In this document: piece by piece, positions 4,038 to 10,962 of the stretch
Numbering within the stretch: the first letter of the stretch is position 1
How the letters are laid out: each line of letters opens with the position of its first letter
NCBI RefSeq assembly: GCF_011516765.1
Contig: NZ_JAAABN010000001.1
Location: 496,001-560,000, forward strand
Direction: 5' to 3'
DNA: 64,000 bases
Origin: Acetobacter sicerae
Lineage (GTDB): Bacteria; Pseudomonadota; Alphaproteobacteria; Acetobacterales; Acetobacteraceae
Notes under the pieces: model-generated
What the model saw: only the letters and a program-made list of their open reading frames with translations
The model's database searches: none
What the model was told of the DNA's origin: nothing
Program-made: the position numbers and the translations under genes

Positions 4038-4778
4038 TCAGTGGTGGGGCGCTACCGGGACGGACGCAGCGGGCGCGCAGGCTGGAACCGGAGGCATCGT
4101 CTGTATGGCGACAGGGGCCGCCATCGGCGCGACGACGAGCACCGACCGGGTTGCCGCAACCGGCGCTGCAGGAACGACACCCGCTCCGTGCCCGGCAGGA
4201 AGCGCAACGGTCGCAATCTTGACCGGCTTTGCCGACGGCACAGGCTGTCCGGGATAATAGACAGGCCCCTTGTAGGCTTCACCAATCTGGGACGCATTCA
4301 GGAGATCGACCTTATCGTCCCCGTTGGCGTCACCAGCCAGAGGGGTTTTCTCTGGAAGTGCGACGGGAACATTCCTGCCGATCCTGACTGGCTGCGCCTG
4401 CGGAACAGGGTGTCCTGCGTAATACACCGGCCCCTTGTAAGCCGCTCCTATCTGCGCATCGTTGAGAAGATCAACCTCGGCGTCACCTGTCGCATCCCCC
4501 TCAACCGTTTGATTCTGGCCCAATTTGACCGGTTGCGCCTGAGGAACAGGCTGCCCCGGATAATAAACAGGCCCCCGATACGCTGAAGCAAGCTGCGCAT
4601 CGTTGAAACGATCAACAGCAGCATCGCCTGTCGTCACATCTCCGGCTGGAACCGGGCGGTGTACATGGGAAATTTTTGACGTCTGAGCCTGTTTCTGCGC
4701 CGTCGCCGGCCCGGACAACGCAACCCCCAGCGAAACCGATGTCAGGAGCAACAGAATCCGCCCCATATTTTTCCGCAT
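4038..4778 (-). CDS. secreted protein with three EF-hand-like / GPVYY repeats
   Basis: I do not recognise a named family for this exported protein of 246 residues. A signal peptide is clear: RKN, then the hydrophobic stretch GRILLLLTSVSLGVAL, ending near ATAQ. Three related units of about 40 residues follow at roughly 46-86, 94-134 and 149-188. Each starts with an acidic loop (GDATGDAEVDLLN or GDANGDDKVDLLN) that resembles an EF-hand or dockerin calcium loop, continues with an A/SQIG..Y helix-like piece, and ends in GPVYYPGQPVP plus a PVKIG strand. The first loop is degenerate. The C-terminus is Ala/Pro/Val-rich. I chose the ATG at 4778 because it opens directly into the signal peptide; an in-frame ATG lies at 4820. 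Calcium binding is inferred from the loops only. Confidence 0.75.
   Translation of the reverse strand: MRKNMGRILLLLTSVSLGVALSGPATAQKQAQTSKISHVHRPVPAGDVTTGDAAVDRFNDAQLASAYRGPVYYPGQPVPQAQPVKLGQNQTVEGDATGDAEVDLLNDAQIGAAYKGPVYYAGHPVPQAQPVRIGRNVPVALPEKTPLAGDANGDDKVDLLNASQIGEAYKGPVYYPGQPVPSAKPVKIATVALPAGHGAGVVPAAPVAATRSVLVVAPMAAPVAIQTMPPVPACAPAASVPVAPHH
4215..4643 (-). repeat. three diverged tandem coding repeats
   Basis: Three copies of a roughly 120-bp unit lie inside the secreted-protein gene, at about 4521-4643, 4377-4499 and 4215-4334, separated by short variable linkers. They encode the acidic loop plus the GPVYY(P/A)G(Q/H)PVP motif. The copies are similar but not identical at DNA level, so the duplication is old and the pattern has been kept at protein level. 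Confidence 0.75.
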
Positions 4779-4967
4779 GCTTTCCGCTCTTCCTTCCGCC
4801 TCATTTTGAACACCGATCATTCCACATGCGATCTCTTTTCGATACGCCTCATGGACAGATCAATGCCTCCATTACAGGAAGCGACCAGCCTGAAAACCCG
4901 AAAACAGGCCAGACCGAAAACTTCGGCTGACCTGCTTTCCTGATCAGTTCGCTTCTTCAGCCCCGAA

Positions 4968-7572: not shown

Positions 7573-8541
7573 ATGACAGAAACAGATCTCCGGCAGTTTG
7601 TTGACCCGGAACTGCGTCCTCTTCTTGACCGTCTTGGACCAGCCTCGCTGGATGCCGCATCTCTTCCGGCTGCACGGGCCAGCCGTCAGCCGCCTCCCGG
7701 AATGAAGGACGACCTTCCGGTCATAACAGCCGAGCGGCTGATCCCCGGGATGCCGGATGACCCGGAGGTCCGGGTTCTCGTTATCGAACCCGAAGCGAGT
7801 TCCGACATGCCTCGCCCTGCTGTTCTGCATATCCACGGCGGCGGATTTGTCATGGGCACACCGGACGCCATGGCTCCCACACTGCGCCGGTGGGCTCTGG
7901 AACTGGACTGCATCATTGTCTCGGTGGATTACCGGCTGGCTCCGGAACATCCTTTCCCTGCTCTCATGGAAGATTGTTACGCTACCCTGCTGTGGATGGC
8001 GGACAAGGCCGGGGAGTTGCATATTGACGCGAGACGCATCGGTGTGGCGGGTGAAAGCGCTGGAGGTGGACTGGCCGCAGGTCTCGCCCTGCTGACGCGC
8101 CAGCGCGGCGGTCCGGCGCTTGCGTTTCAGAACCTGCAATACCCGATGCTCGATGATCGCACTGTTCTCGCGACACCGGAGATCCCCGGCAGCGGCGCTT
8201 TTGTCTGGACGCCGGAAATGAATCTGTTCGGATGGGAATCCTATCTGGGAACCACACCGGGAGAGGATGGCGTCTCTCCGTTCGCCGCGCCTGCCCGCAC
8301 CGCCTCGTTCAACGATCTGCCGCCAACCTATATCGGCGTCGGCTCGATCGACCTCTTCCTGCCGGAAGACCTGAACTACGCGACGCGCCTCATGCAGGCG
8401 GGTGTTCCTGTGGAACTGGAAGTTTTCCCGGGAGCCTTCCATGCATTCGAGCTTGATCCACGTGCCGGTGTCACAATCCGGTCGTCCACAAGACGCCTTG
8501 ACGCCATGCGACGCGCCATGGCTCTCCCATACGCTGGCTAG
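7573..8541 (+). CDS. alpha/beta hydrolase, hormone-sensitive-lipase family
   Basis: This 322-residue cytoplasmic hydrolase has no signal peptide. It carries the HSL-family oxyanion-hole motif HGGGF (residues 88-92), the nucleophile elbow GESAGGG with Ser162, and a likely Asp260 (GSIDLFLPED) and His290 (GAFHAFEL) completing the triad. Such enzymes act on short acyl esters or lactones; the natural substrate cannot be read from sequence. A strong ribosome binding site (AGGAGGAGG) precedes the ATG. It lies 32 bases after murA on the same strand and may be read through from it, though the functions are unrelated. Confidence 0.9.
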   Translation: MTETDLRQFVDPELRPLLDRLGPASLDAASLPAARASRQPPPGMKDDLPVITAERLIPGMPDDPEVRVLVIEPEASSDMPRPAVLHIHGGGFVMGTPDAMAPTLRRWALELDCIIVSVDYRLAPEHPFPALMEDCYATLLWMADKAGELHIDARRIGVAGESAGGGLAAGLALLTRQRGGPALAFQNLQYPMLDDRTVLATPEIPGSGAFVWTPEMNLFGWESYLGTTPGEDGVSPFAAPARTASFNDLPPTYIGVGSIDLFLPEDLNYATRLMQAGVPVELEVFPGAFHAFELDPRAGVTIRSSTRRLDAMRRAMALPYAG

Positions 8542-8582
8542 GCCCGTGTTCTCCGCTGCCTCCCGAACTTGACCTCTGCTAC

Positions 8583-8618
8583 ATTCCGAAACAGACTGTT
8601 ACAGTCACGGTTCGGAAT
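8583..8618 (+). promoter_or_regulatory. nested inverted repeat covering the RBS of the pepsin-like gene
   Basis: The outer arms are ATTCCGAA (8583-8590) and TTCGGAAT (8611-8618), perfect over 8 bp. Inside them GACTG (8594-8598) pairs with CAGTC (8602-8606) around a 3-base centre. The right outer arm holds the only plausible Shine-Dalgarno bases (GGAA) for the ATG at 8624. It could be an mRNA hairpin that limits translation, or an operator with two nested half-site pairs. A terminator role for the upstream hydrolase gene is less likely, since only TTTC follows. Confidence 0.6.
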
Positions 8619-8623
8619 TTCTC

Positions 8624-10051
8624 ATGCGCTCTTCCGCTTTTCGTCTCGGCCTGCGAGCTGTTTTCGCCACTCTGTTTCTGACTGGCGCAACAGCCCTCTC
8701 GCCCGTTACACTTCACGCCCAATCTGGAAAAATCGCTGCTTTCGATAAAAGCATGATCCATCAGGACCCTGATGGTTCCTACTATCTTTCAGCACGCGAC
8801 AAACTCGGCGTCATACTTCAGATGGAAGATGGAGATGTTATCGGGCTGAGCAAAGTCATCGAGCATCTCAAGGCCAGCCCTACGGCGTCTCCGCTTGAAA
8901 AGGTTTTTGAAGCCCGGCTTTCACTGGCGGCCATTGCGCGGAGTGCCGGTAATTTTTCCGCATCCAACGAACAGCTCGATAAACTCGCTCATGCTCTTGG
9001 CCCAATGGCTGACCCGGAGCGCATGATCACGCCTCTCGGTCTGATCATAGCGACCATGCGGACTGGCAACTTCTTTCTCGATGGTGACATCCATGCGTGG
9101 GCAATCGCGACAGACGCCATGCGCAGACAATACCTTGAGCCGCTTCGGGCGTTCTATCACATCCCGGATCTGACAGTGCGAAACGCTTCCCAGATGGATC
9201 TCGTGGTTTCACCAGACACCATACCGGAACAGAGCGTCAGCCTTTCCCCAAGCGAGACCATTCCCTTCTGGCAAAGCACACAACTGGTGAATGGCCACCA
9301 GCCGATCAACGCAAAAGGCCGCGTAACCGTTGACGGAGAAAAAACCGACGCTGTCTTCGATACGGGTTCGGATACCCTGTCAGTGCCAAGCGGCTTCGCC
9401 AGACGACACAACCTGCGGGTGATCGCAAAAAGCTCCCTGATTCAGGATGGCGCGGGGCACTCCTTTTTTGCGACATCGCAGTTTGTGATTGTGCCGTCCC
9501 TGAATATTGGCGGAACAGTTTTTCGTAACCAGATCGCATCCGTCACCAGCCCGGATAGTCCTGTCATTGTCGGGCTTCAGCAACTGCTGAAATTATCTCA
9601 CGTGACTTTCAGCAAAACAGGGCTCGAATTTGGTTCGGAAAAGCCTCTGAACTGCACGGATCCTATTGTTCTCGCTACGCTCAGAAGCGGACAGAAGGCC
9701 TGGCTGATGGATATTGTCACACTGAACGGAAGTCAGGATTTCACTATTGTCGATACGGGTAACAACGTTCCGGAGATACTGGAAGTCAATACGCCTTCCC
9801 TGACACCCTCACTCCGACAACATGCTTTCCGCGAACACCTGGCTACGATTGCAGGAGAACAGACTGCAATCGTAGCGATTGAACAAGCCTCGGTCGCCTT
9901 TGGCTCGCAGCAACTCATGGCGCCTGTTCGCTACCAGCAGACCCCGGTCCATATGCGACCGTTACTGACAACAGCCATCCTGAATTACGGAACCATCCAG
10001 TTTGACAGAAACAGCCGCGTCTTCTGCGTCAATCTTCAGACAACCCGATAG
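8624..10051 (+). CDS. exported pepsin/retropepsin-like aspartic protease with two lobes
   Basis: This 475-residue protein starts with a signal peptide (basic start, hydrophobic core, end near LHAQ) and is probably periplasmic. A helical region of about 180 residues comes next. Two retropepsin-like halves then follow. The first has the active-site motif FDTGSD (Asp246) and a later IVGLQQLLKLSHVTF segment that matches the hydrophobic-hydrophobic-Gly strand of retropepsins. The second has VDTGNN (Asp377) and a matching closing segment AILNYGTIQFD. Two catalytic Asp in one chain is the pepsin layout; most bacterial members have one and work as dimers. DTGN instead of DTG(S/T) in the second lobe is a mild deviation. 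The substrate is unknown. Confidence 0.82.
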   Translation: MRSSAFRLGLRAVFATLFLTGATALSPVTLHAQSGKIAAFDKSMIHQDPDGSYYLSARDKLGVILQMEDGDVIGLSKVIEHLKASPTASPLEKVFEARLSLAAIARSAGNFSASNEQLDKLAHALGPMADPERMITPLGLIIATMRTGNFFLDGDIHAWAIATDAMRRQYLEPLRAFYHIPDLTVRNASQMDLVVSPDTIPEQSVSLSPSETIPFWQSTQLVNGHQPINAKGRVTVDGEKTDAVFDTGSDTLSVPSGFARRHNLRVIAKSSLIQDGAGHSFFATSQFVIVPSLNIGGTVFRNQIASVTSPDSPVIVGLQQLLKLSHVTFSKTGLEFGSEKPLNCTDPIVLATLRSGQKAWLMDIVTLNGSQDFTIVDTGNNVPEILEVNTPSLTPSLRQHAFREHLATIAGEQTAIVAIEQASVAFGSQQLMAPVRYQQTPVHMRPLLTTAILNYGTIQFDRNSRVFCVNLQTTR

Positions 10052-10115
10052 TAACGGGCTATATTACTCTTACAGCATAGGAATTAGAGCAAACGGCGGC
10101 CTTGTTTAAAGAATG

Positions 10116-10158
10116 GGCATTCATCTGCTCTGTATCAGTTGCAGAACAGATGAATGCC
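10116..10158. terminator. long intergenic hairpin between convergent genes
   Basis: GGCATTCATCTG (10116-10127) pairs perfectly with CAGATGAATGCC (10147-10158). After a C/A mismatch the stem continues with TCTG and CAGA around a 9-base loop. It sits between two convergent genes, where a bidirectional terminator would be expected. There is no U-run on either side, so function is uncertain. Confidence 0.5.
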
Positions 10159-10180
10159 GGAAATATATGATTAAACCTTA

Positions 10181-10909
10181 TTATCTGCTTTTTGTATTTT
10201 TATGTTTATTCTGAAACTGTTCGATTTCTCCACGCAGATTGCCAATCGGCGCAGCATTGATCGTGTCCTGATAGGTATTGCCGTCCCAGAGCCAGCGATC
10301 CGAACCATCCACCATAAGATCATACATGCCACGATGACTGGTCGGCAGCACGGCAATCTGACCGCTTACGGAATCCAGGATTTTCACCCAGTCCTGACCC
10401 TTGTGCAGATACACATCGGTTGAACATCCAGCCGATCCACATAATGCGGCCGACTGAAGTTCAATGAACAGTGCAACATCGCCTTTTTGGGTCGAAAGCG
10501 GAGCCGAGCCTATCAGCACAAGAGGCTCTTCCTTGTGACGGCGCGATGTCGCGATGTCCTCAGCCGCGAGTTTACGCGCTTCCCTGTCCAGTTCCGTTCC
10601 CGGCTGCTGGGTCAGAATGACAGGATTGCCTTTCGACGAAGCACTCGTCGTTTTAGAGGTGGCGCGATGCCTTGTATGGGAGGTGGTGTGATGGGTCTGC
10701 GTGGTGGCCGCCTGTACATACCCTGATGAAAACACCAGAGAGGACAGACAGGCTCCCAGCATGACCGCTGACCGTTGCCCGCGAAGACGCTGCTGAACAG
10801 ATGAAGCCGTCACTGCGAAGCGTTTTACTGATGGCGACAGGGAAAATGAATGCAAGACTGAAAAACTCCACCTGACGATCATGCCCGAAGGGTCATGACG
10901 AAGACACAT
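10181..10909 (-). CDS. exported protein of unknown function with a Cys-pair domain
   Basis: I do not recognise a named family with confidence. A hydrophobic segment ending near GYVQAA looks like a signal peptide, but it lies about 50 residues from the first ATG. The true start may therefore be internal, for example the GTG at 10813. A His/Thr/Ser-rich linker follows. The C-terminal 110 residues contain a CGSAGC pair followed by VYLHKGQDWVKILDSVSG and RGMYDLMVDGSDRWLW. This resembles envelope proteins with a CG..GC motif and a W-rich closing strand, so a disulphide is likely. The C-terminus is Lys/Asn-rich. Envelope location is inferred. Confidence 0.7.
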   Translation of the reverse strand: MCLRHDPSGMIVRWSFSVLHSFSLSPSVKRFAVTASSVQQRLRGQRSAVMLGACLSSLVFSSGYVQAATTQTHHTTSHTRHRATSKTTSASSKGNPVILTQQPGTELDREARKLAAEDIATSRRHKEEPLVLIGSAPLSTQKGDVALFIELQSAALCGSAGCSTDVYLHKGQDWVKILDSVSGQIAVLPTSHRGMYDLMVDGSDRWLWDGNTYQDTINAAPIGNLRGEIEQFQNKHKNTKSR

Positions 10910-10962
10910 CAACCACTTATTCCTGCTACCATACCGTAATTCCCTGAAGGAGCGAGACGATC

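Follow-up and report, generated by a model that had tools for sequence, protein, structure and literature searches.

A predicted two-lobed aspartic protease-fold protein of Acetobacter sicerae and the probable loss of catalytic residues among its relatives

The window analysed here (the whole stretch of 64,000 nucleotides, positions 496,001 to 560,000 of contig NZ_JAAABN010000001.1 of Acetobacter sicerae) contains a gene for a protein of 475 amino acids, P0001, in which a signal-like sequence is followed by a predicted helical domain and two predicted lobes, each with a DTG motif (Table 1). The initial annotation had described an open reading frame (ORF) for an exported chain, the motifs DTGS at residue 246 and DTGN at residue 377, and a hydrophobic-Gly element after each of them. 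The ORF was confirmed, with a signal-like N-terminus (judged by eye), and both motifs are at those residues; the hydrophobic-Gly element was found after the first motif, but not after the second, where the corresponding residues are LLT. Among the 26 family rows that have a letter at this second site, only two (L024 and L025) have Gly there. Two or more DTG motifs occurred by chance in 0.7% of 20,000 shuffles of P0001.

Table 1. Features of the P0001 gene, in window coordinates.
Feature	Position	Strand	Basis
Whole gene, 475 aa, two-lobed aspartic protease-fold protein	8624..10051	+	ORF and translation
Signal-like sequence, residues 1-33, predicted cleavage near LHA-Q	8624..8722	+	read by eye
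N-terminal helical domain, residues about 34-190	8723..9193	+	DSSP of model; inside range aligned to 9iy9
Lobe 1, residues 226-342, Pfam Asp_protease_2	9299..9649	+	Pfam and model
DTGS 246-249, first catalytic motif	9359..9370	+	sequence, alignment
IVG 315-317 (I315-V316-G317), hydrophobic-hydrophobic-Gly of lobe 1	9566..9574	+	Gly in 27 of 27 rows
Lobe 2, residues 343-475	9650..10048	+	profile comparison and fold; missed by Pfam
Cys344, invariant	9653..9655	+	23 of 23 rows of alignment A2
DTGN 377-380, second catalytic motif	9752..9763	+	sequence, alignment
LLT 447-449 (L447-L448-T449), Gly replaced	9962..9970	+	alignment with ALLG/MLLG of tandem proteins
Cys468, invariant	10025..10027	+	23 of 23 rows of alignment A2

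In the Pfam search, lobe 1 was recognized as Asp_protease_2 (residues 234-317, E 5.6e-8), whereas lobe 2 and the helical domain had no match. At E up to 10, a range in which the HMMER filters drop most matches above 0.1, the only Pfam families reported for P0001 were PF13650 and PF13975. Thus, of the two kinds of profile that the initial annotation had named for such a search, the retropepsin type was found and the pepsin (A1) type was not. The two invariant cysteines of lobe 2 may form a disulfide (Cys344-Cys468) across that lobe.

Directly upstream of the gene and on the same strand is an ORF for an alpha/beta hydrolase (7573-8541, Abhydrolase_3, E 1.9e-61). A similar hydrolase ORF is upstream of the gene at four related loci (L002-L005) too, and shared transcription of hydrolase and protease gene is possible. 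On the opposite strand, 10181-10912 encodes an exported-looking protein of 243 amino acids with no Pfam or NCBIfam match at E up to 0.01, and an ORF like it adjoins the gene or its remnant at L002-L005. Further away, also on the reverse strand, 4038-4820 encodes a secreted-looking protein of 260 amino acids with three similar stretches, each containing a GPVYYPGQPVP-like motif; this protein, too, had no Pfam or NCBIfam match at E up to 0.01. The GC content of the P0001 gene is 0.538, compared with 0.596 for the window. This low value and the patchy occurrence of the family would fit horizontal transfer, but the neighbour at 10181-10912 is equally low in GC (0.532), and no conclusion was drawn. 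There was no tandem DNA repeat in 8000-10500 of the window, and promoter-like sites were at shuffle level (two found, shuffle mean 1.8).

The structure of residues 33-475 was predicted with AlphaFold2 from a 38-row alignment (A4), consisting of 27 family sequences and 11 sequences of ordinary tandem retropepsins; the model has a pLDDT of 92.1 and a pTM of 0.91. A previous model, made from five close sequences (A1), had a pLDDT of 41.6 and was discarded in favour of the 38-row model. Six helices (DSSP: residues 63-68, 72-84, 90-107, 111-129, 137-153 and 156-178) are followed by two beta lobes, with each DTG just past a strand. The model contains the helical domain that the initial annotation had placed ahead of the lobes and, together with the fold matches below, supports its proposal that both lobes of an aspartic-protease fold are present in one chain; a second DTG outside a retropepsin loop, which it had named as evidence against itself, was not seen.

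The best match to the model among solved structures, by Foldseek, was 9iy9 (E 2.2e-17, TM 0.66/0.69, rmsd 5.8), followed by tethered single-chain HIV proteases and then by pepsin-type structures. With VIA-align, 374 residues were aligned to 9iy9 (Z 26.0, rmsd 4.1), with 27-439 of the model on 25-437 of the chain, helical domain included, so that the predicted model has the three-part fold of 9iy9 from end to end. Penicillopepsin (Z 15.3, 235 residues, rmsd 3.9) and the tethered HIV protease 4eqj (Z 13.9, 186 residues, rmsd 2.9) were each aligned in one range across both lobes; given these single alignments, the lobes of the model would be set roughly as in pepsins and the tethered HIV protease. 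In a search of PDB sequences with profile A4, which includes the 11 ordinary tandem rows beside the family, 9iy9 was again first (E 2.9e-17), and both DTG motifs were aligned to its two DTG motifs; with P0001 alone, the match to 9iy9 had an E of 0.0027 and the second motif was weakly matched (1.8 bits).

The supposition that a two-lobed single chain is unusual in a bacterium was not supported. When PF13650 was searched in 21 genomes, at least one ORF with two matches was present in all 13 genomes of the genus (A. sicerae included) and in two of the eight others, and 9iy9 has the same build; thus, to have both lobes in one chain is commonplace here. There were 21 such tandem ORFs in all (P0001 itself has a single PF13650 match), two of them, L104 and L120, in the genome of the window. 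The motifs, read in 18 of the 21, were DTG then DSG in 16, DSG twice in one and DTG twice in one.

Profiles of these ordinary tandem proteins allowed the second lobe to be assessed by homology. In hhalign, the lobe 2 profile of the family (27 rows) and that of the tandem retropepsins (11 rows) aligned over 105 columns with a score of 30.1, above all 60 column shuffles (best 19.0); the helical domain, used as a negative control, scored 14.6 and 9.6. This homology is a stronger argument for the second lobe than the frequency of DTG in shuffles. Within the family (27 rows), lobes 1 and 2 matched each other with a score of 29.3 in a stretch of just 18 columns surrounding the motif (60 shuffles gave at most 16.5), compared with 95.5 over 106 columns between the two lobes of the ordinary tandem proteins (11 rows). 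Against the ordinary tandem proteins, lobe 1 of the family scored slightly higher with lobe 2 (62.6) than with lobe 1 (57.4), so that a duplication common to both groups is not supported.

Of 49 genomes of the genus, 7 have a homologue, as do 19 of 397 genomes in a sample of the taxonomic family (in 6 of the 102 genera there). In a sample of 385 genomes of the class (E 1e-6), the only homologue was in the window's own genome, and in a sample of 398 genomes of the phylum (E 0.01), the matches in 33 further genomes were all partial, covering the lobe 1 region in 32 of them and the helical domain in one. Whole-length members were found only in the sampled Acetobacteraceae, and patchily. A six-row subset of the alignment (A3) found family members in named records of Gluconacetobacter dulcium, Gluconacetobacter sacchari, Asaia krungthepensis, Asaia lannensis, Asaia sp. 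W19 and Swaminathania salitolerans, which match, in contig coordinates and in sequence, loci of six genomes of the family-level sample; Gluconacetobacter, Asaia and Swaminathania belong to the Acetobacteraceae. A scan of a contig database with P0001 alone, from which the window's own or near genomes may have been left out, found no relative.

There are 35 distinct family ORFs: the window gene, 26 others that with it form the 27-row set, and eight fragments excluded from the counts (L023 in two pieces; L004; L005; L055; and a second ORF at each of L013, L015 and L029). Of the two L023 pieces, one retains the first motif intact and the other the second, so a broken copy of the intact type is among the excluded fragments. 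Five incomplete sequences were kept: L013 (with its N-terminus in another frame), L015, L021, L022 and L035, of which L021 and L022 were translated from an open frame without a start codon. In these 27 usable sequences, both catalytic Asp are present in nine (one of them L013, frame-shifted upstream), the first only in three and neither in 14, and one truncated sequence, in which the first motif is absent, no longer has the second; one or both catalytic Asp are therefore missing from 18. In none of the 26 rows with both sites is the second Asp kept without the first. The fewest changes on the tree are four for the second Asp and two for the first; these changes are probably losses, on a tree that is midpoint-rooted and whose long branches leave some placements unsure. 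Where the second Asp is gone, the TGDN-type loop that follows it is often retained.

The nearest relative, L002, is 88% identical to P0001 and has kept both motifs (DTG and DTG); L003 (60-61% identical) has DTA and NTG. In L004 and L005, from two genomes of the genus, there is a common internal deletion (951 alignment columns); the open frame that remains consists of the signal sequence fused to lobe 2 (L004:1492-2004 and L005:1516-2028). This loss of lobe 1 makes the gene look dispensable. Both Asp are replaced in L014, L015, L016, L017, L018, L021, L026, L027, L028, L029, L030, L031, L034 and L035, all from Asaia or Swaminathania, and in several genomes two or more of these dead copies are adjacent. 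From their sequences, the dead copies are likely to be pseudoproteases.

Between P0001 and L002, omega is 0.10 at a dS of 0.66 (0.05 for lobe 1 and 0.10 for lobe 2), and for the other intact pairs it is 0.30 (L006-L007, dS 0.03), 0.40 (L011-L013, 370 codons) and 0.34 (L024-L025, dS 0.03). Five dead pairs from Asaia and Swaminathania have values of 0.21, 0.12, 0.10, 0.10 and 0.15, although these pairs share rows (L034 and L016 are each used twice) and one is near saturation (dS 1.8). Thus, by these values, constraint on the dead pairs is at least as strong as on the intact pairs.

Taken together, P0001 is likely to be an exported clan AA aspartic endopeptidase with two lobes, the build of 9iy9 and one active site per chain. 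It would be a periplasmic or secreted enzyme, as its signal-like N-terminus suggests, in which each lobe would provide one Asp of the pair (D246 and D377); as both lobes are in one chain, no dimer would be needed to form that pair. The preceding helical domain probably serves to hold or gate the substrate; the best guess for that substrate would be a cell-envelope protein or peptide. That the protein is active in this species is probable, with the doubt coming from the 18 of 27 rows that are without a catalytic Asp and from the altered second loop and Gly motif of P0001 itself. The residue after DTG in the clan is usually Ala, Ser or Thr, according to PMC12239564, whereas the second DTG of P0001 is followed by Asn.

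The most credible rival explanation is that P0001 is already a non-catalytic binding protein, in which the fold has been kept and both Asp are present by chance or for structural reasons. We consider this unlikely. In its favour, two-thirds of the family rows do without at least one catalytic Asp, several separate changes are needed on the tree, copies without the pair remain under constraint (omega 0.10-0.21 across the five row-sharing pairs) and the TGDN-type loop often outlives the Asp before it. What speaks against it is the comparison with L002: at a dS of 0.66, both proteins still have DTG in both lobes, and both lobes have low omega values. Very improbable, by comparison, is that lobe 1 dimerizes as a usual retropepsin and that the second DTG arose by chance in a domain unrelated to it. 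Pfam does see lobe 1 only, but lobe 2 matches lobe 2 of the tandem proteins over 105 columns, the model folds a second lobe, and the alignments to pepsins and tethered HIV protease cover both lobes.

The least credible explanation is that put forward in the initial annotation, namely an evolutionary intermediate between retropepsins and pepsins. There are indeed two lobes per chain, pepsins score well in the fold comparison, and the A4 profile touches candidapepsin-5 (E 0.06) and gastricsin (E 0.46). Nevertheless, P0001 had no A1 profile even at the permissive threshold (subject to the filters mentioned above), its nearest whole-chain structure is bacterial (Z 26 compared with 15.3), whole-length members among the genomes sampled are confined to the window's bacterial family, and the similarity between its lobes is much weaker than in ordinary tandem proteins.

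With P0001 thus read as a probable single-chain endopeptidase, the best reading of the family's sequences is that catalysis has been lost repeatedly. A fuller account, which we offer tentatively and with some doubt, is that P0001 belongs to a catalytically intact minority of a family of exported, two-lobed aspartic-protease folds, that this family in acetic acid bacteria repeatedly lost the catalytic pair while its fold remained under strong selection, and that the copies in Asaia and Swaminathania are duplicated dead folds with a new binding function at the TGDN-type loop, similar to inactive eukaryotic pepsin homologues. By itself, P0001 is one more divergent bacterial tandem aspartic protease, in a genus where two-lobed single chains are routine; the more interesting part is the absence of the catalytic pair across a family under continued selection. 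The nine members with both Asp and the 14 with neither provide natural material for studying at what stage, and for what reason, catalysis is abandoned in a two-lobed protease.

Literature searches gave, by title among the matches listed, nothing on the architecture of P0001, on its Acetobacteraceae family or on the missing catalytic pair in that family, and no paper on bacterial Asp_protease_2/PF13650 proteins; nor was there a paper naming 9iy9 or a relevant crystal-structure paper on a Bacteroides fragilis aspartic protease since 2023. The entry 9iy9 itself (released 2025-08-06) is an 'Exported protein', a putative endopeptidase of B. fragilis with a chain of 420 residues, which has in common with P0001 a helical N-terminal part and two DTG lobes in one chain; it differs in being from another phylum and in having only 15% sequence identity to P0001.

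Other known proteins resemble P0001 in part. The A1 pepsins are, like P0001 (from its predicted model and motifs), bilobed single chains with one Asp per lobe, but P0001 has no match to an A1 profile; their bacterial homologues are described in PMC2761423 as bilobed, with one Asp per lobe, and predicted to be intracellular. The mycobacterial proteins PE_PGRS16 and PecA have a single-chain protease domain with DTG and DSG, and PMC6819658 reports that PecA is active and that no activity was seen for PE_PGRS16. In these proteins (PDB 4EHC), unlike P0001, the domain is attached to PE_PGRS surface proteins, and no match to PF20729, their Pfam family, was among those of P0001 at E up to 10. APRc, which is one-lobed and dimeric, and RloA both share with P0001 a retropepsin lobe of clan AA. 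RloA is a dimer of one-lobed chains (PMC12239564), and P0001, with two lobes and two DTG motifs per chain, does not have the one lobe and one DTG of a single-lobed dimeric (A2-like) retropepsin. Closer to home, L104 and L120 have two retropepsin lobes per chain as P0001 does, although their motifs are DTG then DSG; they are shorter (345 and 326 amino acids), have no long helical domain in front, and have both Pfam matches and the hydrophobic-hydrophobic-Gly element in both lobes, where P0001 has each in lobe 1 only. P0001 shares with this tandem group of clan AA an Asp_protease_2-type lobe 1 with DTG and IVG and a second lobe with DTGN-377 in the expected loop. As the Gly element of the second lobe is missing, it is by fold, without a full match of motifs, that P0001 is grouped with the tandem bacterial retropepsins, as a divergent relative.
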